Source: Gammaproteobacteria bacterium (GTDB lineage Bacteria > Pseudomonadota > Gammaproteobacteria > Steroidobacterales > Steroidobacteraceae). Taken from it: a stretch of DNA of 64,000 bases. Shown here in pieces: positions 3,427-53,664 of the stretch. The DNA lies in assembly GCA_021323735.1 (NCBI GenBank), contig JAJPKM010000023.1, positions 62,001-126,000 of the forward strand, given 5' to 3'. Each line of letters opens with the position of its first letter. The first letter of the stretch is position 1. The translations under genes and the position numbers were made by a program. The notes below the pieces were generated by a model, which did no database searches, was not told the DNA's origin, and was given only the letters and a program-made list of their open reading frames with translations.

Positions 3427-4242
3427 ATGCCGAACAGAAATATGCCGATTACCGCGCTCGCCGTGGCCCTACTCACAGCAGCCGTTGTAAATATTGCGCA
3501 AGCCGGTGCTCGCGAGGAGGGACGCTTGCTCACCGCCACGGAAGTTCTGGAGGAGGTGCGGGCGATGCCCGATGTGCGCCTGCCGGATACCTTGCTGGCG
3601 CATGCCTACGGCATTGCCGTGATACCCGATGTCACCAAAGTCGCGTTTATCTTCGGCGGCCGGCACGGCAACGGGGTGCTCTCGGTGCGCGACAAATTGA
3701 ACGCGCCTTGGAGCAATCCGGTTTTCATTTCTCTGACCGGCGGCAGTTGGGGATTCCAAGCCGGCGCGCAATCCTCCGACATCATCTTGGTCTTCACCAC
3801 CAAGACGGGCATCGAAGGCATCGCCGGCGGCAAGCTCACCCTGGGTGCCGACGCCTCGGTGGCCACCGGACCTGTGGGACGGCAAGGGTCCGCCGCCACC
3901 GATATGAACTTCAATGCGGAGATTTATTCCTACGCGCGCACCCGCGGATTGTTCGGCGGCGTTGCGCTCGATGGCAGCGTGATCTCCATTGACCGCTCGG
4001 CGAATGCTTCGCTGTACCACAAGAGCGGCGTTGGTGCCTCGGAGATCATCTCCGGACAAGCACCCGCACCACCGGCCACGGCTCAGCGCTTCCTGGAACG
4101 CCTGGCGCAGGCCACGGGCACCTCGGTACGAACCTCGCCCGCCCCGCAGGCGGATGTCCCGCCGGCCGGCGGTCAGCCATCGAACGTCGCGCCGACCGCG
4201 GAGCCCGCGCGCACGTATCCTCTGGAAGATCAGAAGAAGTGA
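3427..4242 (+). CDS. SYLF (Ysc84-type) lipid-binding domain protein, exported
   Basis: About 271 residues. The N-terminus (NMPITALAVALLTAAVVNIAQA) is a cleavable signal peptide. The body matches the SYLF/Ysc84 pattern: LAHAYGIAVIPDVTKVAFIFGGRHGNGVLSVR as a run of short motifs, then GGSWGFQAG, DIILVFTTKTGIEG and KLTLGADASVATGPVGR. Family members bind phosphoinositides or other lipids in eukaryotes; bacterial roles are poorly defined. The C-terminal 60 residues are Pro/Ala-rich and probably disordered. The ATG at 3427 is chosen because GGAGGG lies 7 bases upstream; an ATG at 3412 is in frame but overlaps that ribosome site. Confidence 0.85.
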   Translation: MPNRNMPITALAVALLTAAVVNIAQAGAREEGRLLTATEVLEEVRAMPDVRLPDTLLAHAYGIAVIPDVTKVAFIFGGRHGNGVLSVRDKLNAPWSNPVFISLTGGSWGFQAGAQSSDIILVFTTKTGIEGIAGGKLTLGADASVATGPVGRQGSAATDMNFNAEIYSYARTRGLFGGVALDGSVISIDRSANASLYHKSGVGASEIISGQAPAPPATAQRFLERLAQATGTSVRTSPAPQADVPPAGGQPSNVAPTAEPARTYPLEDQKK

Positions 4243-4251
4243 ATTTCGGTC

Positions 4252-4278
4252 CCGACCGCCGCGTCAATTGGCGGTCGG
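4252..4278 (+). terminator. Hairpin after the SYLF gene
   Basis: CCGACCGCC (4252-4260) and GGCGGTCGG (4270-4278) form a perfect 9-bp stem with a 9-base loop, starting 10 bases after the stop codon. There is no following T-run, so intrinsic termination would be weak. It may instead mark the boundary with the next two genes. Confidence 0.35.
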
Positions 4279-4306
4279 CGCGGATCGCCGACAATTGAGC
4301 CATGCG

Positions 4307-4759
4307 TTGATATTTCGCTGCAGTGGAAAGGGCGGATTCTCTGCCGAGGTTGCCGGCCATCCGCAGCATGTCGAGGCGAGAAAACGCGAGCGCGAAGTCG
4401 AGGTCCGCTTCACCGACGTCGCCTGCATCGTAAGAACCCCCGAAGGCGCGGTTCATGCCCACCCCGGCGATGCCATCCTGACGGGCAACGGCGGACAGCA
4501 TTGGCGGGTGTCGCACGCGAAGTTCGAGCACAAGTACCGGCCCATACCGCCCACCCTGCCCGGCCGGTCCGGCCGCTATATGAGCCTACCCTATCGCATT
4601 CTGGCGCTGCGGCTGCATGAACCCTTCGATGTCTGGCTCGCGGACGGGGTATCCGCCTTGAGCGGCCACGCGGGCGATTGGCTGGTGGACTATGGCGACG
4701 GCAGTCTCGGCATCGTCGCCCAGGACATCTTTGCGACGACCTATGAAATCCTGAGGTAG
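4307..4759 (+). CDS. PGDYG-domain protein
   Basis: A roughly 150-residue cytoplasmic protein. Typical features are EVRFTDVACIVRTPEGAVHAHPGDAILTG as consecutive motifs, WRVSHAKFEHKYRP, and the near-terminal HAGDWLVDYGDGSLGIVAQDIFATTYE. The name-giving motif of the family (PGDY-like, here AGDWLVDYGDG) recurs as PGDAILTG earlier, which fits an internally repeated small beta domain. The start is uncertain: no ATG lies near the N-terminus, TTG 4307 is the best short option, and TTG 4268 is possible. The stop is one base from the next ATG, so the two genes form an operon. The biochemical function is not established. Confidence 0.65.
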   Translation: MIFRCSGKGGFSAEVAGHPQHVEARKREREVEVRFTDVACIVRTPEGAVHAHPGDAILTGNGGQHWRVSHAKFEHKYRPIPPTLPGRSGRYMSLPYRILALRLHEPFDVWLADGVSALSGHAGDWLVDYGDGSLGIVAQDIFATTYEILR

Positions 4760-4760
4760 C

Positions 4761-5804
4761 ATGAGCATGGCGTTCCACCAATTGATTCAACGAGTGCTGC
4801 TGATCGGGACTCGATTGAACGGTGCACCGCCGCCTGCACTCTCCAGCCCCCCGCGGCGGTTGCTGCCCCTCATCGAGGCTCTCGCCCCCGTCCACCTCAA
4901 GTTCGATGCACGTGCCGTGTACTATGGCCACCGCTATCGCAGCGGATTCTGGGCGATCTATCTCTTGAGTGCGATTGCGGTGCTGTTCGCGGTGCTGCCC
5001 CTGGCGCTGGGATGGGACGACCGGCGCCACCTCCAGCACCCCGTGGTTGGATTGTGGGCGGTCGCCGAGGTACTCATCATCGGCACCGTGAGCGCGATTT
5101 ATTCGCTGGGGCATCGGCGCGATTGGCAAGGCCAATGGCTGCGCGCACGGACCACGGCCGAATTGATCTGGTATCTGCCGCTGGTCGCGCCGCTGCTCGA
5201 TTTCAGCCGGCCGCAGGCATCCGCAAACTGGTACATGCGTGTGTTCGATCCGGGCAATCACCTGCGGGTCGGCGACGATCTTGAAGCGACCTGCGTACAG
5301 AACGAACCCTTGGCCAGCACGCTGCTCGACGGAGCCTGGTGTGACCCGGAATTCGTCGCACTGTACGCGCAGTGGACGGTGAGCGTGCTCGAGGCCCAGA
5401 CGCACTATCATCAGCGCGTTGCGACCCGGCAGCGCGCCCTGATGCACCGCGTCCATTCGGTGAATATCGGGTTGTTCGGACTGACCGCCCTCGGGGCTTT
5501 GCTGCATCTCGCGATACATACCGTTTGGCTGTCGGTGATCACCACATTTTTCCCGGCGCTCGGCGCTTCGCTGCACGGCGCGCTCGCGCAGTCCGAATCC
5601 TACCGGCTGGGTACGACCTCCGAACGTCTGGCCGCGGAATTGCAACGCGCCATCGGCAGCTTGCGCGAAACCTTGGGCGAGCCCGGATCACTGCCGCAGC
5701 CGGAGCCCATCAAGGAGTCGATCCAAGAGGCCATCGAATTGATACTCGAGGAGCATCAGGATTGGCACATGCTGGTACGGCCGCACCATCTGCCATTGGC
5801 CTAA
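4761..5804 (+). CDS. SLATT/DUF4231-like multi-TM protein
   Basis: A 347-residue membrane protein. A paired hydrophobic region (GFWAIYLLSAIAVLFAVLPL and VVGLWAVAEVLIIGTVSAIY) is followed by RRDWQGQWLRARTTAELIWY, which resembles the post-TM helix of SLATT/DUF4231 proteins. A second membrane block near residues 240-275 precedes FFPALGASLHGALAQSESYR and a coiled C-terminal helix. SLATT proteins are known from comparative genomics as predicted membrane effectors of nucleotide-triggered conflict systems. Assignment to that superfamily is by pattern only. It sits one base after the PGDYG gene, so the pair is probably a functional unit. Confidence 0.6.
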   Translation: MSMAFHQLIQRVLLIGTRLNGAPPPALSSPPRRLLPLIEALAPVHLKFDARAVYYGHRYRSGFWAIYLLSAIAVLFAVLPLALGWDDRRHLQHPVVGLWAVAEVLIIGTVSAIYSLGHRRDWQGQWLRARTTAELIWYLPLVAPLLDFSRPQASANWYMRVFDPGNHLRVGDDLEATCVQNEPLASTLLDGAWCDPEFVALYAQWTVSVLEAQTHYHQRVATRQRALMHRVHSVNIGLFGLTALGALLHLAIHTVWLSVITTFFPALGASLHGALAQSESYRLGTTSERLAAELQRAIGSLRETLGEPGSLPQPEPIKESIQEAIELILEEHQDWHMLVRPHHLPLA

Positions 5805-13369: not shown

Positions 13370-14194
13370 ATGAGCGTCGCCGTGCCCGTCAAGAAACCCA
13401 AAGCCACCGCCGTGGAAGATGTCCAAGGACACGCCGATACACGCCGTATCCCCATCAACAAGGTTGGGATCAAGGACATCTTTCACCCCGTCAAGGTCAA
13501 GGACCGCTCGCGCGGCGAGCAGCACACGGTGGCCAATTTCAACATGTACGTGAATCTGCCGCACAATTTCAAGGGCACGCACATGTCGCGCTTCGTGGAG
13601 ATCCTGCATCGCCCGGGACTGGAAATTTCCGTCGAGTCCTTCGGCAAGATGCTGGCGGAAATGACCGGCCACCTGGCCGCGGACTCCGGCCACATCGAGA
13701 TGACTTTCCCCTACTTCGTCATGAAGAAGGCACCGGTATCGGGAGTCGAGAGCCTGATGAACTATCAGGCGACGATTTTCGGCGAACATCGCCATGGCAA
13801 GACGGAAGTTTGGCTCAAGGTGGTCGTGCCGACGACCAGCTTATGCCCTTGCTCGAAGGAAATTTCCGACTACGGCGCGCACAATCAGCGCTCCCACATC
13901 ACCTTGACGGCGCGGCTGATCGAGCACATGTGGCTGGAAGAATTGATCGAAATCGCCGAACGCGAAGCGTCATGCGAGGTTTACGGAGTTCTGAAGCGCC
14001 CCGATGAGAAATTCGTCACCGAGCGCGCCTACGACAATCCGAAATTCGTCGAGGACACGGTGCGCGACGTCGCGGTCGCGCTCAACAACGACAAGCGTAT
14101 TCGTGCTTATGTGGTCGAGGCGGAAAATTTCGAGTCGATTCACAATCACTCGGCATACGCGATGATCGAGCACGACAAGGAAACGGCTTCCTAG
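13370..14194 (+). CDS. folE2: GTP cyclohydrolase IB (FolE2)
   Basis: A 274-residue GTP cyclohydrolase of the metal-flexible IB type. It converts GTP to 7,8-dihydroneopterin triphosphate, the first step of folate/pterin synthesis. Family motifs include [20 protein letters not shown] and the Cys-containing [20 protein letters not shown]. Start ATG 13370 has AGGA upstream. FolE2 is often used under zinc limitation; no clear Zur operator was seen in the 180-base upstream region. No folE (type IA) lies in the window. Confidence 0.94.
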
Positions 14195-39063: not shown

Positions 39064-39525
39064 ATGATCAATCGAAATTCGCTTTCATCTTCACGTCGTC
39101 TTAGCGGTTTTACGCTGGTCGAGTTGATGATCACAGTGGCCATCCTGGCGATTATCGCCGCGATCGCGGTACCTGCTTACACCCGGCAGGTACAAAAGGC
39201 GCGGCGCACCGATGCGCGCAACGCCCTGCTCGACCTGGCAGGACGCGAGGAAAGGTGGCTAAGCGTTGCGAATTCGTACAGCCAAAACACCACAGATTTG
39301 GGATACACGGGCGCGTGGCCTGTGGCGACCACCAACGGCTACTATAATGTCACGGTGAAGGTCCCCGATCCGAACGCTGTCAGCCCCACCAATCCCTCTT
39401 TCATCATCACAGCCACGGCGGTGGGCACCCAAGCCAACGACACGGCCTGTGCCACATTTTCGGTGAATCAGCTCGGTCAGCAATTCGCAACGCCGTCCGC
39501 GGCAGCAACCTGTTGGGGTCCTTAA
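39064..39525 (+). CDS. pilE: Type IV pilin PilE (minor pilin)
   Basis: 153 residues. Prepilin motif SGFTLVELMITVAILAIIAA with Glu5, then IAVPAYTRQVQKARRTDARN, ALLDLAGREERWLSVANSYS and a C-terminal disulfide pair (TACATF, ATCWGP). It is the last gene of the operon and is followed 5 bases later by a strong terminator. In Xanthomonas and Pseudomonas this position holds the minor pilin PilE rather than the major subunit. Confidence 0.9.
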   Translation: MINRNSLSSSRRLSGFTLVELMITVAILAIIAAIAVPAYTRQVQKARRTDARNALLDLAGREERWLSVANSYSQNTTDLGYTGAWPVATTNGYYNVTVKVPDPNAVSPTNPSFIITATAVGTQANDTACATFSVNQLGQQFATPSAAATCWGP

Positions 39526-39530
39526 AGAAG

Positions 39531-39554
39531 GCCGCGCTCCGAGCGCGGCTTTTT
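39531..39554 (+). terminator. Rho-independent terminator of the pil operon
   Basis: GCCGCGCT (39531-39538), CCG loop, AGCGCGGC (39542-39549), then five T (39550-39554). A perfect 8-bp GC-rich stem and T-tract directly after pilE. Confidence 0.93.
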
Positions 39555-39556
39555 CA

Positions 39557-39564
39557 TTTGCTAC
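39557..39564. repeat. Target-site duplication, left copy
   Basis: TTTGCTAC lies immediately outside the left terminal inverted repeat and is identical to 48304-48311 outside the right one. IS1595-family elements are known to make 8-bp duplications. The site begins two bases after the T-tract of the pilE terminator. Confidence 0.93.
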
Positions 39565-39587
39565 GGGTGTTACTACGCAAATGGCCA
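39565..39587 (+). repeat. Left terminal inverted repeat of the IS1595-family element
   Basis: GGGTGTTACTACGCA, then AATGGCCA. Compared with the reverse complement of 48281-48303 only positions 16 and 17 differ (AA against TG). Confidence 0.92.
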
Positions 39588-39660
39588 AAGCAGTGTTAAA
39601 TAGCTGATTCGTCTGGATTTTCCATAAACCAGTTCGCTTCACGACGGGTACCCTTACCGG

Positions 39661-40155
39661 ATGCCCGCCGACATGCGCAAAAAAGTTCGTTCCTATCTCA
39701 AAGGTCTTGCAGAGAATCGGGCCCGGGCCGCGGGCGACATCGTGCGACTCGAGGCGATGGCCGCGCAAGTCGCCAAGGCATTGGTGGAGGCGCGACTAGA
39801 CCTTGAGAGCTGCGATAGGCTCATTAAAAAATACGACCCCCGGTTACGCCCGGAGCGGATCGAACCAGTGCGAGAGTGGCGGCACCACAAGGGTAAGCGC
39901 GGAGATCTTCGGCAGTTTCTCGTTGATACCATCGCGCAAAAAGCGCCCGCTCCACTCACCTTAACGGAGATTTGCTGCGAGATCGAAATGCGGTGGGAGC
40001 TGACGTTTCTCACAGACCTGGATCGATCAAGTTGGCGACGCGACTGCGTTGCCCGGGCGCTGCGCGCTTTGGTCGTCCAAAAGAAAATCGCGGCACTGCA
40101 CACAAAGAAGGGTGGGGATTCTATCTCGGAGGTCGCCCGCTGGAAGGCGATCTAG
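39661..40155 (+). CDS. Unknown protein with coiled coil and possible winged-helix C-terminus
   Basis: 164 residues, not recognised. The first 65 residues are basic and helical (MRKKVRSYLKGLAENRARAA, ALVEARLDLESCDRLIKKYD) and could form a coiled coil. Residues 80-150 (RQFLVDTIAQKAPAPLTLTE, then CCEIEMRWELTF and VARALRALVVQKKIAALHTK) have the look of a winged helix. It begins 74 bases inside the left repeat. Its last 35 bases overlap the end of the convergent transposase gene. A DNA-binding accessory role in transposition is conceivable but unsupported. Confidence 0.65.
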   Translation: MPADMRKKVRSYLKGLAENRARAAGDIVRLEAMAAQVAKALVEARLDLESCDRLIKKYDPRLRPERIEPVREWRHHKGKRGDLRQFLVDTIAQKAPAPLTLTEICCEIEMRWELTFLTDLDRSSWRRDCVARALRALVVQKKIAALHTKKGGDSISEVARWKAI

Positions 40156-41404
40156 GGTTGCGACCCTTGGCCGGGCCACTGGCCCTGGCCGGCGCCGGGT
40201 GTGGGTGCGTTAGTTCCTCTTTTCGATGGCGGCCGTGCGTAAAACCGCGCCAGTAGCGCGACAACCCGACATTCAGCGCGAGGTGCAGCGCGATCTGCAA
40301 CTGGCTGCCGTTCGGCATGCGCCTCGTGTCGGCGCGAAACGCGGTCTCAACCGCATAGTCGAGCAGGTACTTCGGTTCCAAGTTCAGATACACGCCTTGC
40401 TCCGCGCGGTCCATGCGGAAATTCAGCTCCTCCGCCAAGTTGTTGTTCTCTCCGTTGGGACCGACCAAAGCCTCGCTGTGGTTTGCCTGCCGGTGTTCGA
40501 GGAAGTCATCGCCGAGTTTGTCGTAGGGGCCAAACCCGTCCGTGTTTAGGAAGCTCTCGCCCTTGGCAATGAAGTCGGAAATGACCGCCGTGAGCGATTT
40601 GGCGTCCTCCGCTCTTGCGATGGCGACTTTGGAGACGACTGCTCCATAGCCGCGGACACCGGAGCGCTTTCGCACCGTGATGAACTGACGTCGATCCGCG
40701 GGGAACTGTGTGCCAAAGACAGGATCTCGCGGAGCGTTCGGATTCTTCGCGGCGTTTTTCCTGCGTTGGTTTCGGCGCTTTTGCTGCGCGACGCCCGTCA
40801 GTGATGCTTCCTCAATCTGCGCTTGCAGCTCCTCGACCGGAGTGTCCTTGGTGTCTGGCTTTGATACTTGAGGTCTGCCGCGTCGTGCGACGGAATCCTT
40901 TCCTGATGCATGAGCACCGTCCATCTCGATATCACCGCTCAAAAGGCCCACGTTGTAGCCACGGACAAGGGCTTCGCGCATCTTGTGCTGCAAAGTGAAC
41001 GCCGTGTTATAGGTCTTATCGAAGTGGCGCTTGAGCTCAAGTGCGGGTTGACCCGCGGCGCTATTGATCCATAGGAGGCTGCCGGCAACGATGTCCTGAA
41101 GCTTCAGCTTTCTGGCTGCGAATACCGTATCCGACGTGACACTGAAAGCTCGATCACACGCGCGACATTTCCAGCGTCGCTCGAGGGGCCGAAAATAGTG
41201 GTTCGAGATCGACCCGCAATGCGGGCATCTGCTCGTCTCGGCACTTCCCCAGCGGATCTGTATCAAGAATTGAAGGCACTCCTTGTCCTCCATCGCGTAG
41301 ATTTCTTGAAGCGAAAGATCCACCGCAAATCGCGACATGTGCCACTTTGCGGTTCCTGATCGCCGTCGCCTTCTCTTCCATGGTGCTGGATCCGGCGTGC
41401 TCAT
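40121..41404 (-). CDS. IS1595 family (ISXO2-like) transposase
   Basis: 427 residues. An N-terminal zinc ribbon (SRCPHCGSISNHYFRPLERR, KCRACDRAFSVTSDTVF) precedes helical RKLKLQDIVAGSLLWI and an RNase-H-like core: first Asp in DIEMDGAHASGKD, second in FLNTDGFGPYDKLG, and the third segment in NHSEALVGPNGENNNLAEEL / FRMDRAEQGVYLNLEPKYL. The family uses DD(N/E)K chemistry; I cannot fix the third residue by eye. The C-terminus has a Pro/Arg-rich extension. The ATG at 41404 overlaps the TGA of the upstream 248-residue gene (ATGA), so transposase translation is probably coupled to it. An alternative start is 41338. Confidence 0.9.
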   Translation of the reverse strand: MSTPDPAPWKRRRRRSGTAKWHMSRFAVDLSLQEIYAMEDKECLQFLIQIRWGSAETSRCPHCGSISNHYFRPLERRWKCRACDRAFSVTSDTVFAARKLKLQDIVAGSLLWINSAAGQPALELKRHFDKTYNTAFTLQHKMREALVRGYNVGLLSGDIEMDGAHASGKDSVARRGRPQVSKPDTKDTPVEELQAQIEEASLTGVAQQKRRNQRRKNAAKNPNAPRDPVFGTQFPADRRQFITVRKRSGVRGYGAVVSKVAIARAEDAKSLTAVISDFIAKGESFLNTDGFGPYDKLGDDFLEHRQANHSEALVGPNGENNNLAEELNFRMDRAEQGVYLNLEPKYLLDYAVETAFRADTRRMPNGSQLQIALHLALNVGLSRYWRGFTHGRHRKEELTHPHPAPARASGPAKGRNPRSPSSGRPPR

Positions 41405-42147
41405 ACCGCTTTCTTCAAGAATTCGTTGAATAGCTCATAGGGCACAGCGCTTGCCCTAGCATCGTAGGGTCTTTCCGCGGGATTCCTTTTTCGTTGCAGT
41501 AGCCAGCGCCTAAATCCGCTGCAGGCCGGCTCCGGGATTCTCTCAGTGAGTGCATACCTCTCATCATTGATGATTTCCGGTTCGATTTTCAGGAGACTCG
41601 GACGCGTCGGTAGTCGCGTGCTATTTCCGGTAAGCCCTTGGAGAATGCCGCGCAAAATAAGTTCGGACGGTCTTAAGAATCGCGGGGCAAAGAAGAAGGG
41701 TGCCGGCCTTAAAGTGGGCATCATTTCCTCCTTGACCGTGGTGCCGTAGAAGCCCCTTTCAAACTCATCGCCAACAATCTCGATGGCGCCGAGTTGTCGG
41801 ATAGCGTTGCCGCTATTCGGAATATGCTGGATAACGGCGCTCATGCGGTCTGCAAACGCAACCTTTTTTGAGACATCATCAACGGGCTGCACTTCCTCTT
41901 TAGGATTTTTAGGATCCGGCGAGAAAGCTGCAGCGATGGCCCGAGCAGCCAAATCCCAGACACTTGCAGACCAACGCGGATACTTGTACAGGACTACCTG
42001 ATCGCGAACACCGCAACCCACCTCAAAGAGCACCACCTTGTAATCAGCTTCCTCCGCGAGGTGCTTGTAACCAATCTCAACCCAATCGAGTCGGTTGAAT
42101 CGGGAAATGCCGGTCAGGGGACCGGCATGTATGCTGATCCGTAGCAT
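41401..42147 (-). CDS. Unknown 248-residue protein coupled to the transposase
   Basis: Not recognised. No signal peptide or clear TM segment. The first 60 residues (GPLTGISRFNRLDWVEIGYK, EADYKVVLFEVGCGVRDQVV) look alpha/beta. The C-terminal part is basic (CSGFRRWLLQRKRNPAERPY). Its ATG overlaps the stop of the 98-residue gene by one base (TAATG), and its stop overlaps the transposase ATG (ATGA). The three genes are therefore one translational unit inside the element. A role in controlling or targeting transposition is possible, but the sequence gives no direct evidence. Confidence 0.7.
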   Translation of the reverse strand: MLRISIHAGPLTGISRFNRLDWVEIGYKHLAEEADYKVVLFEVGCGVRDQVVLYKYPRWSASVWDLAARAIAAAFSPDPKNPKEEVQPVDDVSKKVAFADRMSAVIQHIPNSGNAIRQLGAIEIVGDEFERGFYGTTVKEEMMPTLRPAPFFFAPRFLRPSELILRGILQGLTGNSTRLPTRPSLLKIEPEIINDERYALTERIPEPACSGFRRWLLQRKRNPAERPYDARASAVPYELFNEFLKKAV

Positions 42148-42443
42148 TATTCGATCTCGACGTCCCAGGCTTGCGCATACTGAACTGCACCAGCCATTTC
42201 AAAGCCCCGCAGGCGCAGCTTCTTACCATAAACTGACAACAGTACAACGTCGTGCAGAACCAGTTGCACGATCTCTGGAGTGCTCAAAAGATCGACGACC
42301 TGTGCCGTTAATAGCACTCTTCCAAAGGCATCTTCGCGAACATCGGATACTCGAAGATCCCCGTGAACCGCTGCGCCTTCAGTGCGTTCCTTTGTGGACA
42401 GAGCGACGCCATGCACATTGATGGGGCGTACCTGCACTCTCAT
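42147..42443 (-). CDS. Unknown 98-residue protein, first gene of the transposase operon
   Basis: Not recognised. Predicted to be beta-rich from alternating pattern (MRVQVRPINVHGVALSTKER, GRVLLTAQVVDLLS, LHDVVLLSVYGKKLRLRGFE). Ends AQAWDVEIE. No TM or signal. Its stop shares one base with the ATG of the 248-residue gene. The upstream 428 bases hold no convincing gene and would contain the operon promoter. Confidence 0.65.
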   Translation of the reverse strand: MRVQVRPINVHGVALSTKERTEGAAVHGDLRVSDVREDAFGRVLLTAQVVDLLSTPEIVQLVLHDVVLLSVYGKKLRLRGFEMAGAVQYAQAWDVEIE

Positions 42444-42871
42444 TGATTCATCCTGATTTTGCGCGACGCGGCTGGTGAAATGGCCACTTCACTTGATCGG
42501 CGGCGATCATCGAATATGGAGAGAAAGAAACCCAACCGTCTCACACATTCGATTAATTGCGTCAGTGCCCGCATGACAGAAAAACCTCCCCCTATGCGAA
42601 GCGGGAAGTCCGCTTGGGTTCAATAATTCGTAACGACTCGGATTTACTAGCGCGTATGTGGAGGAGAAGCGCGCCGCACGCGAGAGACTTTATGGTTCCG
42701 GTGTCAGCAGTTCAAGTGACCGCTCGAAATTAATTTGGCATATGTAACGCAGCGTGAGCTCGCGCAAGAAAAATCCGGGCCACATACAGCATCGGTGGAT
42801 CCATGCCTCTGTATATCGCCGGCATATACAGTGTTGAGCTGCTCTAGGAACTGTAGACGCCGTGAATTCCG
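42444..42871. other. 428-base gene-free stretch with inverted repeats
   Basis: No convincing coding region. Contains a perfect 8-bp inverted repeat CTGTATAT/ATATACAG with a 7-base spacer at 42809-42831, and AAGCGG/CCGCTT around 42610. The first resembles an operator; its half-sites are too far apart for a LexA box (CTGT-N8-ACAG). The region should hold the promoter for the three-gene transposase operon. More AT-rich than the flanking chromosome. Confidence 0.5.
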
Positions 42872-43093
42872 TCAATCGTCTTCTGGCCAAGTGATTTTCG
42901 CGGCCTTCACGAGATCGGGATGAATTAGAAACATTTCATCAACTGCTCCACCCTTCGCTACGAGCTTGCGATCTCGCGATTGCGAGTCGCTCTTCATCTT
43001 TTGAAGCTTTTTCGATGACGCAACGCGACTGCCTATCGGCGCTTCGAGTTGGCGCTTTTTAGGTATCATGGATTTGACACCGCGGCTTTTCAT
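42872..43093 (-). CDS. Small basic protein, duplicated in the element
   Basis: About 73 residues, not recognised. Lys/Arg-rich N-terminal part (MIPKKRQLEAPIGSRVASSK, KLQKMKSDSQSRDRKL) and a distinct tail AKGGAVDEMFLIHPDLVKAA ending WPEDD. The tail is nearly repeated in a decayed copy on the plus strand at 47977-48078, so it is a real conserved protein. The start is uncertain: ATG 43093 or 43069, neither with a good ribosome site. It could be a small DNA-binding or antitoxin-like protein; there is no direct evidence. Confidence 0.6.
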   Translation of the reverse strand: MKSRGVKSMIPKKRQLEAPIGSRVASSKKLQKMKSDSQSRDRKLVAKGGAVDEMFLIHPDLVKAAKITWPEDD

Positions 43094-43173
43094 TGCTCGC
43101 CGAGTGTAGCCGCAAGAACCGGGCGGCACAAAGTGATCACACTCGCGATTGCCAAAAATGGCTGCCGAGGGCA

Positions 43174-43323
43174 TCAGTGCAAAAACTTGCCCCAATGCAT
43201 CACGGCCAGCCCTATCGAGGAGCCCAGGACGCCAATGGTGCCAATAGTTGCGCCAATGTTTACGAGCGTGTCCCGCGCGTGTTCTTCATCTTGAAAATGT
43301 GTGTTAAACCAATTTTTTATCAT
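43174..43323 (-). CDS. 49-residue single-TM protein
   Basis: MIKNWFNTHFQDEEHARDTL followed by one hydrophobic helix (VNIGATIGTIGVLGSSIGLA) and a short basic tail. The ATG overlaps the stop of the upstream 142-residue membrane protein (ATGA), which is the main support for it being real. Gly-spaced helix suggests helix packing or oligomerisation. Function unknown. Confidence 0.6.
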   Translation of the reverse strand: MIKNWFNTHFQDEEHARDTLVNIGATIGTIGVLGSSIGLAVMHWGKFLH

Positions 43324-43748
43324 GTTCGAACCCTTAACGAAAAGTGTACAACCGTATAGATAACTCCTGCAGCTAGGGTCATTCTTGCGGACCAAACGAA
43401 TGTCCTATAGTGCTGTCGCCAATGCGGGTCGGTAGGTCTACGCAGACGAGTTGAAAACACAGAACCGCTTGCTGCAAAAATTGAGCACGCCACAAGCGTT
43501 ACAATCAGGCTTCCGACAATCCACCACTCTTCGAGCGTAAGCCCATTGGGACGGTGTGCGTCAGCAATTTCATAGAGTGCCGATGCACAAAAAGACATTC
43601 CAACCCAGCACAATTGTCCGTCCTTGATTGGCACAATCAACTTCGTTTTGGCGCTAAATGTTTGCGGTAGAGGTAAGACACCGTAAAGCGCCGTCAGGAG
43701 GACCGGCGCAATCAACGGAATTGCTATTGTTACGGCTAACCAACCCAT
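43320..43748 (-). CDS. Unknown 142-residue membrane protein
   Basis: About four hydrophobic segments: WLAVTIAIPLIAPVLLTALY, LCWVGMSFCASALYEIA, WWIVGSLIVTLVACSIFAAS and WSARMTLAAGVIYTVVHF. ATG 43748 has GAGG upstream. No family recognised. It is translationally coupled to the following 49-residue TM protein, and the pair is likely a membrane complex. Confidence 0.65.
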   Translation of the reverse strand: MGWLAVTIAIPLIAPVLLTALYGVLPLPQTFSAKTKLIVPIKDGQLCWVGMSFCASALYEIADAHRPNGLTLEEWWIVGSLIVTLVACSIFAASGSVFSTRLRRPTDPHWRQHYRTFVWSARMTLAAGVIYTVVHFSLRVRT

Positions 43749-43920
43749 ATCAACCTCTTCAGGCGTGTTTCCGCGCAAAGCCAGGGGAAATCATGTGAAA
43801 CCATGACGTCTTACCAAAGTCCAGGCGCTGCATTCCGATCGTGCACGCTTTCGTAGCTGAAAATGCTGCCGGCTTTTTCGCAAAAGTTGGCTAGTCGTTT
43901 CGTACGTATGGGAATTGATA

Positions 43921-44439
43921 CTACAAATCCTTGTTCGCCGCAGCGATGTGCTCGCGCATTTCCTGTCGCTTCTCTGCCGACATGACGAACATTACCGACT
44001 TGTTGATATTCCCAGCAACACGCGCCAGGTAGATTCCGTCCTTGGAAGTTTCGAAACGACAAAGGACTTGAGGGACGTGCAACCCCAGTCGTGTTATTAC
44101 CTCAGAATTCTCGCATTTCGTACCGGGGAATTTCTCGAGCATCGCGGCTCGGAGCTGGTCAAACCCGAAGCTATCAAAAATGAAGTCGATCGAATCCGCT
44201 GTACCGTTGTTGTCATAGGTGGTGGCGAGCAACCTCCCTTTTACGCCCCCGACCGTGAATGGAGTCTTGCGCGAAAACGCACAACCTTCCAGGTAACAAA
44301 AGTCCGTCAAGTGTCCGGTAAGTTCGTAGCGTTTCATGCCGGCATGAAAGCCCTTGATATCGACACTGTCTTCGGCAAATGCAGTCCCGCTCAAGAGTAT
44401 GGAACCGAGCAACGCCCCCAATGTCCATCTGTTGGTCAT
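43921..44439 (-). CDS. Exported protein of unknown function
   Basis: 172 residues. A signal peptide (RWTLGALLGSILLSGTAFA) precedes a mature domain with four Cys (FCYLEGCAF, GTKCENSEV, QVLCRFE), probably two disulfides. DIKGFHAGMKRYELTGHLTD at the start of the mature part recalls small periplasmic proteins with a GMKxxE pattern (structural repeats of unknown role). The start is ATG 44439, preceded by GGAGGGG. Divergent from the subtilase gene across a 382-base gap. Periplasmic location inferred. Confidence 0.75.
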   Translation of the reverse strand: MTNRWTLGALLGSILLSGTAFAEDSVDIKGFHAGMKRYELTGHLTDFCYLEGCAFSRKTPFTVGGVKGRLLATTYDNNGTADSIDFIFDSFGFDQLRAAMLEKFPGTKCENSEVITRLGLHVPQVLCRFETSKDGIYLARVAGNINKSVMFVMSAEKRQEMREHIAAANKDL

Positions 44440-44821
44440 AAACAATTCCCCTCCCTTCGGCAAAACGCCGTAATCCTAAATTAAAGCTCTCACCCTGCGT
44501 TCGGCAACAGAATCGATCACAAATTCAAGGCGGTTTCCGCTCAACAATTCCAATCTTTTTCAAGCAGGGGGTGTGCCCGTCGATGAAGGCACTATTAAAT
44601 TTCGAAGATCCACAAGGGCTAGCACGTCTACTTGGTCGCCAAAGAAGACTGGGATTCCCAGACAGAAGAAAAAACACGTGGACGACACAAGCTTGCGTAT
44701 CGCGATTCAGTTCACAAGAAATCTGTCAGTCGTCGTGATCTAGCTCTCGCACAACATATTGTGTGAGATGGGAGACTGCAAAAAATTGCCGCATGTTTCA
44801 AAAATATTGAGGGAGCGAATT
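44440..44821. other. 382-base divergent spacer upstream of the subtilase gene
   Basis: No convincing coding region; the longest candidate is a 53-codon frame beginning near 44583, with no homology I recognise. Contains CACAA-CATA-TTGTG (44748-44761), a small inverted repeat 60 bases before the subtilase start that could be an operator. Promoters for both flanking genes should lie here. Confidence 0.45.
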
Positions 44822-47188
44822 ATGGCGAAGCTTCAAACGGCTATCGCCCGGACAAGGGATTGCTTACATCGCGGAGTCTTGTCGGGCTTTTTTCTAGTAT
44901 TAACCGCGTGCGGTGGCGGTGGCGGTGGAGGAGGCAGCGCGGCCCCACCATCTCCTCCCGTCGCAACCGCGTCTGCGAATGTGTCCCAGGGCCAAGCTCC
45001 ATTGACGGTGAACTTCGATGCGTCGAAGAGCACTGATCCGCAGAATTTCCCACTGACCTATTCTTGGACATTTAGCGACGGAGCTACCGCGACCGGCGCA
45101 ACCGCGGCGCACACTTTTCAGAATCACGGGAGTTATACGGCAACGGTTGCCGTAAACGATGGCCACAATACGGCGACCTCGGCACCGATCGCGATCTCCG
45201 TCAGCCCGGCGCCGCCCACCGTACAGCCGCTGACTGTTCAGGTAAATGTCATGGGAGTTGCCGCCACCGCTGTCACGGCGCAGCTCTTGGCGTCCGACCG
45301 AGAGAACCTGGCGCTGACGTACACGCTTACAACCCCGCCCACCGTAGGAACCGCTACCGTGAACAGCAGTACGGGTGCCGTCACCTACACCGTTCCTGGC
45401 TATGTCACTGCGACAACAGATTCGTTCGTGGTTACGGCCGCAAACCTTGATGCGTCTTCGCCGAGCACCGTCAACGTATCGCTAAATTCCGACCCGTTGC
45501 TGACCAATCAGTGGCACATCCAAAATGTAGGCCAAAATACGTTTGCCACGACATTTCCCGTCGCCGGCAATGACATGAACGTGACTGGCGCTTGGACTGC
45601 TGGGTATTCCGGCAAGGGTATCAAGGTTGGGGTAGTTGACTCGGGACTTGAGGCCGCGCACGAAGACCTGGCCGCCAACGTGGACCTGACCCATTCGTTC
45701 AATTTTGTCACCGGAACTAACGATCCGACTCGGCCGCCGACTGACGCAGGCGATGACCATGGGACGCAGGTGGCAGGCATTATCGGTGCGGTTGCTTTTA
45801 ACGGGAAGGGCGGGCGCGGTGTCGCATATAACGCCACTCTGCGAGGATATAACCTGCTTGCCCCAACTGTGCCCTTCAGCGTAGCCAATTTCGGAAAGGC
45901 GATGGGGAGCGATCCGGTTTCAGCGGACAACGATCTGTTCAATGCCAGCTTCGAAGCCGCGCAGGGATTCTCGTTGCCCACATTTAGCGGCGCCTACCAG
46001 GCAATCACAGGGACGACTCTGACGCTCCGGGCAAATCTTGGCGCTGCCATCGTCAATGCCGCCGGTAACGATTTTGTCAGCTTAACCGGTGCTCCGGCGG
46101 GTGCGTGCGCTCTCGCTAACCAGTTTGGTGTCGGTTGCGGCGACACTGCAGGGGATGAGCGTCGGGGAGGTTTTGCTCCAATCATCGTCGCGGCACTCAA
46201 TGCGAACGGCATCCACTCGAGCTATTCAAACACCGGCGCTTCCTTGTGGGTGTCTGCGCCTGGCGGCGAGTTTGGGGGCAACGTTTCTGTGATTCCGTCG
46301 CAATTCTTTTCCCAGTTTGCTGATCCGATTCATGCGATCCAGCCGGCAATTATCACCACCGCGCGCACGGGTTGCCCATACGCATCGCAGGCCTTCTTCA
46401 ATCAAACGCCCCCGGTGTCTATGAATCCGCTCGATGATCAAGGTGCCAATCCGTTGGCGCCGCAGTGTCAGTACACGGCACAAATGAACGGGACTAGCTC
46501 CGCGACCCCGAATACCGCAGGTACGGTTGCGATGATGCTCGAGGCAAACCCAAAACTCTCGGTTCGGGACGTCAAGTACATCCTGGCCAAAACCGCGAAA
46601 CACGTCGATCCCAACTTCACAGGGGTTGCATCCACGAACGTCGTTCCTGGAAATACAATCACGCTGGAGCAGGGCTGGGTGACGAACTCGGCGGGATTCT
46701 CATTCAGCAACCGATATGGTTTCGGTGGCGTGGATGCAGCCGCCGCGGTTGCGATGGCGAAGTCGTACACCAGCTTCCTACCGACGCTTCAGAACTCGAC
46801 CGGCAACTACGCCTTCACGGCCACGACCGCGGCTGATGTGGTCCCGCCGGGTTCGGTGACTGGTGCGACCATCACGTATACCGTGAGTGAGCCTTTCTCG
46901 ACGGTAGAATTTGTCGTGGTGATCGTCAGTCTCTCCTCGACCCCTGGAATGCTGTGCAACCAGATAGAACTCACCTCCCCGTCGGGGACAAAATCGATCC
47001 TGGTGCATGCGGCGAACGGCTTTCAAAACACTTCGGTGCCCCTGTCACGATTAGAATCGAATGCGTTCTATGGCGAGCCGGTAAATGGAGCTTGGAAACT
47101 GAAGTTTCTCGACTTTTGTAACGCGTCAGGAACGTCAACTACGCTCTCAACAACGCAGGCCCAACTACTGTCGATTGAAGGCCATTGA
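44822..47188 (+). CDS. Lipoprotein subtilisin/kexin-like protease (S8) with PKD and P domains
   Basis: 788 residues. The signal ends FFLVLTAC with a lipobox Cys followed by eight Gly, so the protein is probably membrane-anchored by lipid. Next a PKD domain (ASANVSQGQAPLTVNFDASK, TYSWTFSDGATATG, HGSYTATVAVNDG), then a second beta domain. Peptidase S8 domain: Asp about 273 (VGVVDSGLEAAHED), His about 313 (DDHGTQVAGI), Ser about 559 (MNGTSSATP). The C-terminal P/proprotein-convertase domain (TVEFVVVIVSLSS, QIELTSPSGTKSIL, NGAWKLKFLDFC) completes a kexin-like layout. No I9-type propeptide is seen before the catalytic domain. ATG 44822 has GAGGGAG upstream; the frame is open from 44759. A cargo gene of the IS1595 element. 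Confidence 0.92.
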   Translation: MAKLQTAIARTRDCLHRGVLSGFFLVLTACGGGGGGGGSAAPPSPPVATASANVSQGQAPLTVNFDASKSTDPQNFPLTYSWTFSDGATATGATAAHTFQNHGSYTATVAVNDGHNTATSAPIAISVSPAPPTVQPLTVQVNVMGVAATAVTAQLLASDRENLALTYTLTTPPTVGTATVNSSTGAVTYTVPGYVTATTDSFVVTAANLDASSPSTVNVSLNSDPLLTNQWHIQNVGQNTFATTFPVAGNDMNVTGAWTAGYSGKGIKVGVVDSGLEAAHEDLAANVDLTHSFNFVTGTNDPTRPPTDAGDDHGTQVAGIIGAVAFNGKGGRGVAYNATLRGYNLLAPTVPFSVANFGKAMGSDPVSADNDLFNASFEAAQGFSLPTFSGAYQAITGTTLTLRANLGAAIVNAAGNDFVSLTGAPAGACALANQFGVGCGDTAGDERRGGFAPIIVAALNANGIHSSYSNTGASLWVSAPGGEFGGNVSVIPSQFFSQFADPIHAIQPAIITTARTGCPYASQAFFNQTPPVSMNPLDDQGANPLAPQCQYTAQMNGTSSATPNTAGTVAMMLEANPKLSVRDVKYILAKTAKHVDPNFTGVASTNVVPGNTITLEQGWVTNSAGFSFSNRYGFGGVDAAAAVAMAKSYTSFLPTLQNSTGNYAFTATTAADVVPPGSVTGATITYTVSEPFSTVEFVVVIVSLSSTPGMLCNQIELTSPSGTKSILVHAANGFQNTSVPLSRLESNAFYGEPVNGAWKLKFLDFCNASGTSTTLSTTQAQLLSIEGH

Positions 47189-47202
47189 TTTCGGAGCCGC
47201 TC

Positions 47203-47730
47203 ATGAATCGCATCATTATTTCATTGGTTTTAGCCCTGGCAGTTTCGCCCGTGTGTGCCGCACTCCAGGCGCCGACTCGCACTCTGCAGCCGGTTGGGGA
47301 CGCATCTATGGTTGTCATGGACCGAGGCGCCAAACTCGAAGTAATCCCGACCAAGCGAGCTATGCCGCAGGCCGACGCCACGAGCCGGGTCACCATACAT
47401 CGTGTTGTCGCTGCAAGCGCCGGCTCGATGATCGGTCCGCAGCAGCTAGGCGTTGTTTTCAACCACGCCAGGCAGGAGCAGGGCTACATATCGGGCGAAA
47501 TCGCCTTTCAGATGAAATCCGGGCTAAAACTGTCTGGGCTCTCTTCAGCCATTTACCCAGGCCTCAAGAAGGTTACGAACCCCGAGGTCTATGTTGTGAA
47601 CGCGAGGACACCCGCAGAGTTCATTGCGGTGCTGAAGCGCCTCCAAGCGCGTGATGATCTCGCATGGGTTGAGCCCACCGTAACATACGGACCTAGTCAG
47701 ACCTCCGTCACAAACGAGCTGGCAAAATAA
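47203..47730 (+). CDS. Exported S8-propeptide/I9-inhibitor-like protein
   Basis: 175 residues. Signal peptide NRIIISLVLALAVSPVCA. The C-terminal 45 residues (VYVVNARTPAEFIAVLKRLQ, ARDDLAWVEPTVTYGP) have the pattern of subtilase propeptides and I9 inhibitors, ending in a VEP-type motif that in propeptides contacts the active site. It follows the protease gene by 14 bases with GGAG before ATG 47203, so the two form an operon. Because the protease lacks its own propeptide, this protein may be a separately encoded foldase/inhibitor. That function is inference; the pattern match is by eye. Confidence 0.65.
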   Translation: MNRIIISLVLALAVSPVCAALQAPTRTLQPVGDASMVVMDRGAKLEVIPTKRAMPQADATSRVTIHRVVAASAGSMIGPQQLGVVFNHARQEQGYISGEIAFQMKSGLKLSGLSSAIYPGLKKVTNPEVYVVNARTPAEFIAVLKRLQARDDLAWVEPTVTYGPSQTSVTNELAK

Positions 47731-48280
47731 TTCGATCGGAAACCGCGCGAGCGTTGCGTGATTTGAGCTGGCCGACGCTTTCGGCCGCACCTATCACGGC
47801 AGTCCAAGAGCTTACGGATATGAGTTCTAAATATTACCAATATCAGTAAGTCCAAACTGGTTGTGACGTTTCCGACCACCTACGGATCCTTTGCTTCCTG
47901 GATCTATTTGATGCGAGAACCTTGCGAATATCTCCCGGTCAATGACGGATTTAGGGGGACTAATTGTGATAAGTGAGCCTCACAATCGAGAGGATCGCAA
48001 GCTCGAGCGAAGGGCAGCGCTGCCGATGAAATGTTTCTCATCCACCCAGATCTTGTCAGTGTGCGGGAAATGGACTAGCCCACGGACGATTGCGCTTTTC
48101 CTACAAGTTCCTAGGAGTTCTATCGATTTTATAACTTTCCCGTAGAGCAGGATCATGGGGGTAATGCCAAAACTAACGGATTGTGGTTAGCCGTTCTGGC
48201 GTATCAGCTGCAATCGAGCTGCCGAACAAATTCGCGCCGGTCGGGTGGGGATTCTCTAAATCATTGAATACTAAAGCAAA
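47731..48280. other. 550-base right-end region of the element without an intact gene
   Basis: Contains a decayed copy of the small basic gene (47977-48078) and otherwise no supported coding region. A 67-codon open frame at 47942-48145 overlaps that fragment in a different phase and is not considered real. The right terminal repeat follows at 48281. Confidence 0.6.
47977..48078 (+). pseudogene. Decayed paralogue of the 42872-43093 gene
   Basis: Reads SQSRGSQARAKGSAADEMFL then IHPDLVSVREMD and stop. The core AKGSAADEMFLIHPDLV matches AKGGAVDEMFLIHPDLV of the intact gene at 15 of 17 positions. The frame has a stop just upstream at 47974-47976. At nucleotide level one base is missing relative to the intact copy (GCTCGAGCGAAGG against GCTCGTAGCGAAGG). 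Opposite orientation to the intact copy. Confidence 0.75.
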
Positions 48281-48303
48281 TGGCCACATGCGTAGTAACA
48301 CCC
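48281..48303 (-). repeat. Right terminal inverted repeat of the IS1595-family element
   Basis: Ends TGCGTAGTAACACCC on the plus strand, the reverse complement of the left end. 21 of 23 positions match. Confidence 0.92.
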
Positions 48304-48311
48304 TTTGCTAC
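48304..48311. repeat. Target-site duplication, right copy
   Basis: TTTGCTAC, identical to 39557-39564. Removing the element and one copy restores a continuous spacer between the pilE terminator and the convergent Gly-rich protein gene. Confidence 0.93.
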
Positions 48312-52349: not shown

Positions 52350-52988
52350 ATGAAGATATCGATTGCCTTGAAAAGCTTGTTGGGCGCCGGGGCATTGATG
52401 CTTCCGCTCATGGTTTCCGCAGAGTCCAATGTTCAGACAGGTGCCGCTACCAATTCGCCCGGCGCGACGGCCCATTTGGACTTCTCCATCGTTATTCCGA
52501 AGATTCTCTATCTACGGGTCGGAACCGGCTCTTTATACGCAACCGGCGCTCTGACTTCCGTCAACACCATCGATCTGATCACGTTCTCCCCGGCAGCGGG
52601 CACGGTGGGCAACGGCACCGCGGTGGCCGGCACCGGCGGCGATCTGAGCAACGGCGTCGAGACGGCCGCAATCGTCAGCAACAGCGGCAACGTCACTCTG
52701 AACGCCACCGCGAGCGGCGCGCTCGGCAACGGCAACGGCGACTCCATCCCGTTCACGCAGATCACCACCGGTTCCCAGACGCTCACCTCGGCCACGGCGC
52801 TCCCGGCACCGGTGCTCAGCAATGGCGTCAGTACGAACGTGCTGCTCGTCGCCCCGGCGACGAAGTTCATCTCGCAAGACGCCAAGTGGACCTACAGCTA
52901 CGCCAACACGGCGAATGCGCCCGCCGGTACGTACGGCGGCGTCAATGTGAACAACGGCCGCGTGGTTTACACGGCGACGATGCCGTAA
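52350..52988 (+). CDS. Pilin-like exported subunit B (possible major subunit)
   Basis: 212 residues. Signal peptide SLLGAGALMLPLMVSA, then AHLDFSIVIPKILYLRVGTG. The body is Gly/Asn/Thr/Ala-rich beta sequence (AAIVSNSGNVTLNATASGAL) and the end reads KWTYSYANTANAPAGTYGGV then NVNNGRVVYTATMP, a terminal beta-strand pattern like chaperone-usher subunits. RBS AGGAAG precedes the ATG. It is the first gene of the compact part of the fibre locus. Confidence 0.7.
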   Translation: MKISIALKSLLGAGALMLPLMVSAESNVQTGAATNSPGATAHLDFSIVIPKILYLRVGTGSLYATGALTSVNTIDLITFSPAAGTVGNGTAVAGTGGDLSNGVETAAIVSNSGNVTLNATASGALGNGNGDSIPFTQITTGSQTLTSATALPAPVLSNGVSTNVLLVAPATKFISQDAKWTYSYANTANAPAGTYGGVNVNNGRVVYTATMP

Positions 52989-53013
52989 TTGGATTTAGGC
53001 AAGAGGCCAGTCC

Positions 53014-53664
53014 ATGCACGCGCCACATTGCGGAAACAGGCTGCGCCGAGCGTTTATCGGCGTAGCCCTGTTTGGCGCGTTGCCGGGAAGCGTCTCGGCG
53101 TTCACCGCAACCCTCACGCCGGTAGCGCCGCAGACAGTGTACCTGCAAGTAGGCGTCGGTAGTTTCACGGGCGACTACATCAACGGAGGCCAGCCGCAGA
53201 ACAACACGACCATAAATACCGTATCGGCGACGGTGGCGGCCGCCGCGGTGGGCAACGGCACTGCTCAGGCCATGACGACCAACAGCTCGGCCACGCAGAG
53301 CTTCTTCGACGGTTTTACGTTTTGCAGCGTTCCCGGGCAAGTCTATATCGGCGGCTTTTATCGCACTACCGGCGCGAACACGTCCGCGGCGCTGGTCACC
53401 GCCGCGGTGCCGGCGGCATTGACCAACGCCACTGGCAGCACGATTCCGTTTTCAAAAATCAGCTGGACCTCGAGCGGCAACGCCGATGCCGGCGCCGAGC
53501 CGTTTCCGTCCGGCACCTTTGCCAACGGCGCCATGCAAAACGTCGGCTCCATGGGCAGCAATAGCTGGAATGAAAGCTGCCTGACGTTCTCCTATGCGAA
53601 CAACACTGTGCCGGCCGCCGGCACCTTTACCGGCGTTGTCCTGTACACGCTGAGCTCGCCATAA
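53014..53664 (+). CDS. Pilin-like exported subunit C
   Basis: 216 residues. Signal peptide RRAFIGVALFGALPGSVSAF. Mature start ATLTPVAPQTVYLQVGVGSF resembles the other two subunits (xVYLxVGxGS), and the end CLTFSYANNTVPAAGTFTGV with VVLYTLSSP parallels the end of subunit B. Two Cys (TFCSVPGQVY, ESCLTFSY) may form a disulfide. It begins 25 bases after subunit B and ends in a TAATG that overlaps a short blocked frame (see the slippage finding). Confidence 0.7.
   Translation: MHAPHCGNRLRRAFIGVALFGALPGSVSAFTATLTPVAPQTVYLQVGVGSFTGDYINGGQPQNNTTINTVSATVAAAAVGNGTAQAMTTNSSATQSFFDGFTFCSVPGQVYIGGFYRTTGANTSAALVTAAVPAALTNATGSTIPFSKISWTSSGNADAGAEPFPSGTFANGAMQNVGSMGSNSWNESCLTFSYANNTVPAAGTFTGVVLYTLSSP

Follow-up and report, generated by a model that had tools for sequence, protein, structure and literature searches.

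An IS1595-type cargo transposon beside the pilE terminator of a Steroidobacteraceae genome and related elements located at intrinsic terminators

Tn7 places its cargo at a harmless site in the terminator region of glmS and reads one conserved sequence through TnsD. Bacterial group IIC (class C) introns, the known terminator-targeting elements, integrate behind Rho-independent terminators (PMC3522654). Members of the IS1595 family generate 8-bp duplications and usually have a single transposase gene (PMC8101967), and for ISApl4 of the IS1016 subgroup a preference for A/T-rich 8-bp sites was described (PMC12561309). Transporter ISs with passenger genes were defined on the IS1595 family (PMC3129680; PMC11891212; Siguier 2009 as cited there), and ISNha5 reportedly has a transcription regulator as passenger (PMC11891212).

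The element described here was found in the window, the whole stretch of 64,000 nucleotides of a Steroidobacteraceae genome that was analysed. Like the ISNha5 group, it combines an IS1595 transposase, 8-bp duplications and passenger genes. As far as that group is described in the sources consulted, the window element differs from it in a convergent winged-helix partner gene (orf164), an operon with the genes o248 and o98, an inferred terminator targeting and a cargo that in its relatives is frequently of the defence or toxin-antitoxin type. The regulator passenger of ISNha5 might correspond to orf164 or to the LexA-like gene of related elements. Group IIC introns are retroelements with a ribozyme, whereas the window element combines a DDE transposase with inverted ends and a target duplication; the window had no Rfam match, and a reverse transcriptase domain was absent from the proteins of the element. 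Tn7 uses one conserved target, the present family many unrelated terminators and an IS1595-type transposase, and no TnsA/TnsB, TnsC or TnsD/TniQ domain was present in any protein of the element. The present family includes short transposase-less copies with the same ends, which resemble mobile insertion cassettes and MITEs (named in PMC3129680), but several of these copies have toxin-antitoxin genes and are located at terminators. The family is little described. Our literature search revealed no DDE transposon that targets terminators in general; key subscription papers were outside its scope, thus priority is not established.

The transposon extends from 39565 to 48303 (8,739 bp). Its terminal inverted repeats, end A on the transposase side (39565-39587, plus strand, GGGTGTTACTACGCAAATGGCCA) and end B (48281-48303, minus strand, GGGTGTTACTACGCATGTGGCCA), match at 21 of 23 positions and are flanked by the left (39557-39564) and right (48304-48311) copies of the perfect 8-bp target duplication TTTGCTAC, so that the exact borders of the original prediction were recovered. 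The perfect 15-mer end was present at two sites in the 64-kb window, both of them ends of the element. Inverted pairs with at least 19 of 23 matches and identical 8-mers were limited in the window to one besides the element ends, and five shuffles of the window yielded none. This other pair (52616-53250, 635 bp, 20/23, GC-rich, flanked by GGCAACGG) is probably a product of chance in GC-rich DNA. The G+C content was 54.8% within the element and 62.0% outside.

Read from end A, the genes are orf164 (plus strand), the transposase, o248 and o98 (all minus), three small ORFs, a subtilase and its exported-looking partner. The one transposase inside the element (40121-41404, 427 aa) is of the predicted IS1595 type: the DDE_Tnp_IS1595 (ISXO2-like) domain PF12762 scored 59.5 bits against a cut-off of 27 and the N-terminal zinc ribbon PF12760, expected in every IS1595 group except IS1016, 39.6 bits against 25.4, while the NCBIfam IS1595 domain model remained with 73 bits slightly below its cut-off of 75. 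The candidate triad D162/D289/E325 was invariant in the family alignment. Transposase domain and duplication place the element in the IS1595 family, where it is of the 'transporter IS' type. It departs from the single transposase gene, a typical, not strictly defining habit of IS1595 (PMC8101967), and is counted as a variant because orf164, o248 and o98 are conserved with the transposase. New with respect to the IS1595 elements described in the sources consulted are these conserved partner genes, the inferred terminator targeting and the frequent defence or toxin-antitoxin cargo.

In the window's subclade, o248 and o98 are small overlapping genes ahead of the transposase; start-to-stop overlaps join all three genes in an operon-like manner. 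The accessory gene o248 (41401-42147, minus strand) overlaps the transposase start and has no known domain; o98 (42147-42443, minus strand), also conserved, overlaps the o248 start and gave a weak PHROG match of unknown function. Three of the about eight genes first counted as non-transposition genes (39661-40155, 41401-42147 and 42147-42443) are kept along with the transposase in further elements and look like part of the mobility module; about five remain as true cargo. The original prediction missed the conserved partner genes as well as the definition of the site by a terminator. The cargo starts with three minus-strand ORFs: 42872-43195 (107 aa, no significant match), 43320-43778 (152 aa, no match) and 43921-44463 (180 aa, no match), the last with a signal-peptide-like start by eye and an exported appearance. 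The subtilase (44759-47188, plus strand) has Peptidase_S8, PKD and P domains in Pfam, a lipoprotein-type signal LTAC by eye and a likely start at the ATG at 44822. Its partner (47203-47730, plus strand) looks exported, and the pair is conserved in the same-genus genome G225. A propeptide-type protease inhibitor as identity of the 181-aa partner is a lead by eye only, with no Pfam or PDB match.

orf164 (39661-40155) encodes a coiled coil and a winged helix and is a conserved partner of the transposase clade, as judged from HMM, tree, structure model and fold search. In a draw of 399 genomes (Thiobacillus order), the HMM detected an orf164 homologue convergent with the transposase in all eight nearest loci (L116-L123), four of which had contributed to the HMM; the ordinary IS1595 loci L011-L038 gave no match. 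Three alphaproteobacterial plasmid copies were accompanied by the homologue, five gammaproteobacterial ones were not. The orf164-bearing clade comprised 17 of the 45 rows of a transposase tree, with a support of 100/100. orf164 adjoined every testable member of this clade and none of the 28 transposases outside; the sole clade row without it, L007, is on a 4.6-kb contig ending shortly past the transposase. In the AlphaFold model (mean pLDDT 78.5) a long helix leads into a winged helix, and among the best Foldseek matches, none of which reached E<=0.001, most were winged-helix DNA-binding folds. The role of orf164 is inferred, on co-occurrence and a modest model only. For o248 no confident structure model was obtained, and relatives were found in the class in G000, the source genome, only (369 genomes) and in no plasmid.

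On the Rhodovastum plasmid NZ_OW485602.1, two inverted 1,597-bp copies with 99.9% identity (L189:482-2078 and 3885-5481) hold an IS1595 transposase and an orf164 homologue only, so the two-gene unit exists as a small cargo-free IS; no terminator was found in their flanks. A 3.5-kb element (L169:1540-5004, G1104:C102) lacks a transposase; its genes include one resembling orf164 and one for an ECF-sigma-type protein (Sigma70_r2/r4, DUF6596). A LexA-like gene was considered as a core part; it is present in L005, L006, L086 and L116, but left no trace in the window. The scan for ends gave no clean pair in the plasmid copies L188-L195 and among ordinary IS1595 loci a clean pair in L023 only (AAAATATT), without terminator there.

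Two further large elements, independent of that in the window, share its ends, differ in cargo and are each flanked by a perfect 8-bp duplication of their own, which bears out the mobile cargo unit and the 8-bp duplication fitting IS1595 that had been claimed for the window. L005 (Thiobacillus MAG) is an element of 10,979 bp with the duplication CGGGCGTA and a transposase 57% identical to that of the window, L006 (Burkholderiaceae MAG) one of 9,478 bp with the duplication TTTGGCGA and a transposase of 47% identity. The same module was observed on the IMG/VR contig L086, where one end was located at position 13,993 and the other is missing because the contig starts inside the element. All three have orf164, transposase, o248 and o98 in unchanged order and in addition a LexA/S24-type gene; L007 and L008 are partial elements. 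A search with the end pattern (at most one mismatch) in 217 genomes of the window's family returned 53 matches in 27 genomes and one match for the reversed control. Draft and MAG genomes make up most of the relatives. Sampling by one end motif biased this collection to one lineage. It included transposase-less copies of 0.15-3.5 kb with the same ends, e.g., L162 (207 bp), L174 (151 bp), L164 and L182. For the sister-clade elements, distal ends were searched for and not found.

Back-to-back copies were observed at L080:19043 and L081:552 and 3581 (G134:C41) and at L166:1443, 3723 and 3733 (G126:C47), separated by just the 8-bp duplication or by 9 nt, as if a second copy had inserted between the terminator and the first; target immunity is not in evidence. 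Another relative, L088:2198 (IMGVR_UViG_2775506897_000002), with CBASS and restriction-modification-type genes, lies beside a Dam-type methylase and phage-looking genes and may have entered a prophage.

Among the paired elements, 13 exceed 300 bp, and eight of these bear defence or toxin-antitoxin genes. L005 carries prokaryotic E2-E1-JAB together with an MBL-type protein and a patatin protein, L081 PDC-S27 (716 bits), L153 a Fic protein (a 511-aa homologue in L155), L161 and L170 AbiE, L164 HTH_37, Gp49 and PIN proteins, and L182 PIN with Phd/YefM. Behind the single end of L086 are a 4TM/CD-NTase CBASS pair, a cytosine methylase and Vsr, and two sister-clade loci whose far ends were not found have IetAS (L118) and a restriction-type methylase adjoining the transposase (L116). 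The bias to such cargo is a strong impression and not a test, because an enrichment control is lacking. The window element itself carries the secreted subtilase and its partner and no recognised defence system; its subtilase module is not claimed as one, since the PADLOC 'subtilase' match was weak (9e-11). In G225, three loci are homologous to the window's subtilase with 63-68% identity (L040, L083 and L084 on contigs C39, C161 and C64); the partner gene is present in two of them, and all are short contigs without transposon ends.

In a rival reading, an older, smaller element may have gained the subtilase block by recombination or nested insertion and no longer move in full; the subtilase pair elsewhere in the genus without these ends, the variation of the G+C content inside the element (50-57%) and the single full copy seen in the source genome would fit such a mosaic. 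We regard it as unlikely: the ends and the perfect duplication bracket everything, hence the element was inserted whole or stayed intact, and L005 and L006 are 9-11 kb units of the same plan.

The element lies behind a pilE-like type IV pilin gene (39064-39525, plus strand), a host gene outside the element according to the ORF list and the gene order in same-genus genomes. The sequence and a terminator scan place the intrinsic terminator of pilE, the inferred target, at 39531-39554 (plus strand; hairpin GCCGCGCTCCGAGCGCGGC and T tract), and the left duplication begins 2 nt past the T tract. At least 14 genomes of the same genus have PilE immediately ahead of the Gly-rich gene without insert, as anticipated for relatives lacking the element; the gaps measured about ten to about 210 bp, and the intergenic DNA was too diverged for a comparison with a join at a single TTTGCTAC. 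In G225 (L061) the empty site has a pilE-type hairpin, GCCGCGCTTCTTAGCGCGGC, followed by TTTTTT.

For the family, loci were gathered by end sequence alone in the 217 genomes, and outer flanks were scored for a GC-rich hairpin with T tract. A terminator was scored at 31 of 70 ends (a few being the same end in two overlapping loci), compared with 1.3% of random positions. Paired elements, defined by an 8-bp duplication with at most one mismatch, had a terminator at exactly one end in 14 of 15 cases and never at both; the exception, L166, abuts another copy. Of the intergenic control positions, 2.8% (295/10,500) scored on one side or the other, corresponding to P about 3e-21 for 14/15 under the assumption of independent sites, which is not fully true. 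The 31 terminator flanks formed 19 non-homologous clusters, and counted per cluster a terminator was present at 11 of 12 paired sites. The distance from hairpin to end was 7-14 nt, and read from the terminator side the duplication started with TTT in 12 of 15 elements. The 8-mer flanking the visible end of L086, read from the other side, is TTTTCGGC and fits this pattern. Either end can face the terminator; it is end A in the window and in L008 but end B in L005 and L006. In the sister clade, a strict terminator was found by the orf164 side in five of eight loci versus 5.7% in the control; three had none. Some of the single-end matches without terminator (e.g., L089, L159, L178, L179) may be due to chance or represent distal ends.

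The largest flank cluster comprises 13 loci in related genomes and corresponds to the terminator of a gene beside lexA that encodes an Lpp-type alanine-rich lipoprotein; the elements there differ in cargo and duplications. In the source genome a third family end was observed at the same Lpp-type gene on contig C5 (L082:9907). A HipA-like reading frame, apparently broken by eye, lies inside L082:8584-9907 (G000:C5), and no partner end with matching duplication was found for this single end. Translations inspected by eye placed pilE, a porin, a histone-H1-like protein, Amt, ribosomal protein L27, the L28 region and rpoC upstream of other target terminators, and pnp upstream in the sister clade. 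Such genes are of usually highly expressed kinds.

An IS1595 cargo element of the ordinary kind, inserting nearly at random, would also come to lie at terminators if harmless intergenic insertions are those that persist, and a large survey found IS1595 elements enriched in intergenic positions (PMC9208149). This explanation is improbable in view of the intergenic rate of 2.8% against 14/15, the narrow spacing and the TTT at the duplication edge. We reject the idea that the hairpin is part of the element and the true ends are farther out, since in spite of the resemblance among many hairpins of the Lpp-type hotspot these share a host gene, hairpins vary by site, the duplication sits between hairpin and end, and G225 keeps the pilE-type terminator without an element. 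The preferred reading, to which we assign a probability of about 85%, is an IS1595-clade DDE cargo transposon placed at the 3' edge of the pilE terminator by the mechanism proposed below. The Rhodovastum copies and the three sister-clade loci without terminator, as well as the lineage bias of the collection, count against it. That the family inserts just 3' of intrinsic terminators is inferred from genomes only; no transposition was observed.

Beyond the observed anatomy, distribution and site preference, a mechanism with a role for orf164 is inferred. The transposase would bring the two GGGTGTTACTACGCA ends together and, alone or with the winged-helix protein orf164, would pick the 3' edge of intrinsic terminators; the protein that reads the target is unknown. 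An 8-bp staggered cut, usually starting in the T tract, would then allow insertion of the cargo with either element end toward the terminator. Insertion in the gap that separates a terminator from the following gene leaves both neighbours unharmed, so that even a large unit can persist. The copies that lack a transposase gene (0.15-3.5 kb) would have been moved in trans, and o98 and o248 may be accessory factors of unknown role. Only tentatively, and at somewhat less than even odds, we extend this to a dedicated two-protein system, a DDE transposase with a coiled-coil/winged-helix partner, that recognises terminators generally, favours highly expressed genes with the Lpp-type gene as an attachment-like hotspot, and distributes cassettes of the defence and toxin-antitoxin types to these safe sites.

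A DNA transposon that reads terminators and not one sequence would, if true, solve the safe-insertion problem in a new way and might serve as a tool to place large DNA beside genes, not within them. The question of target selection becomes directly testable. For the arrival of defence and toxin-antitoxin cassettes in bacterial chromosomes, the family would provide a concrete vehicle and a landing rule.
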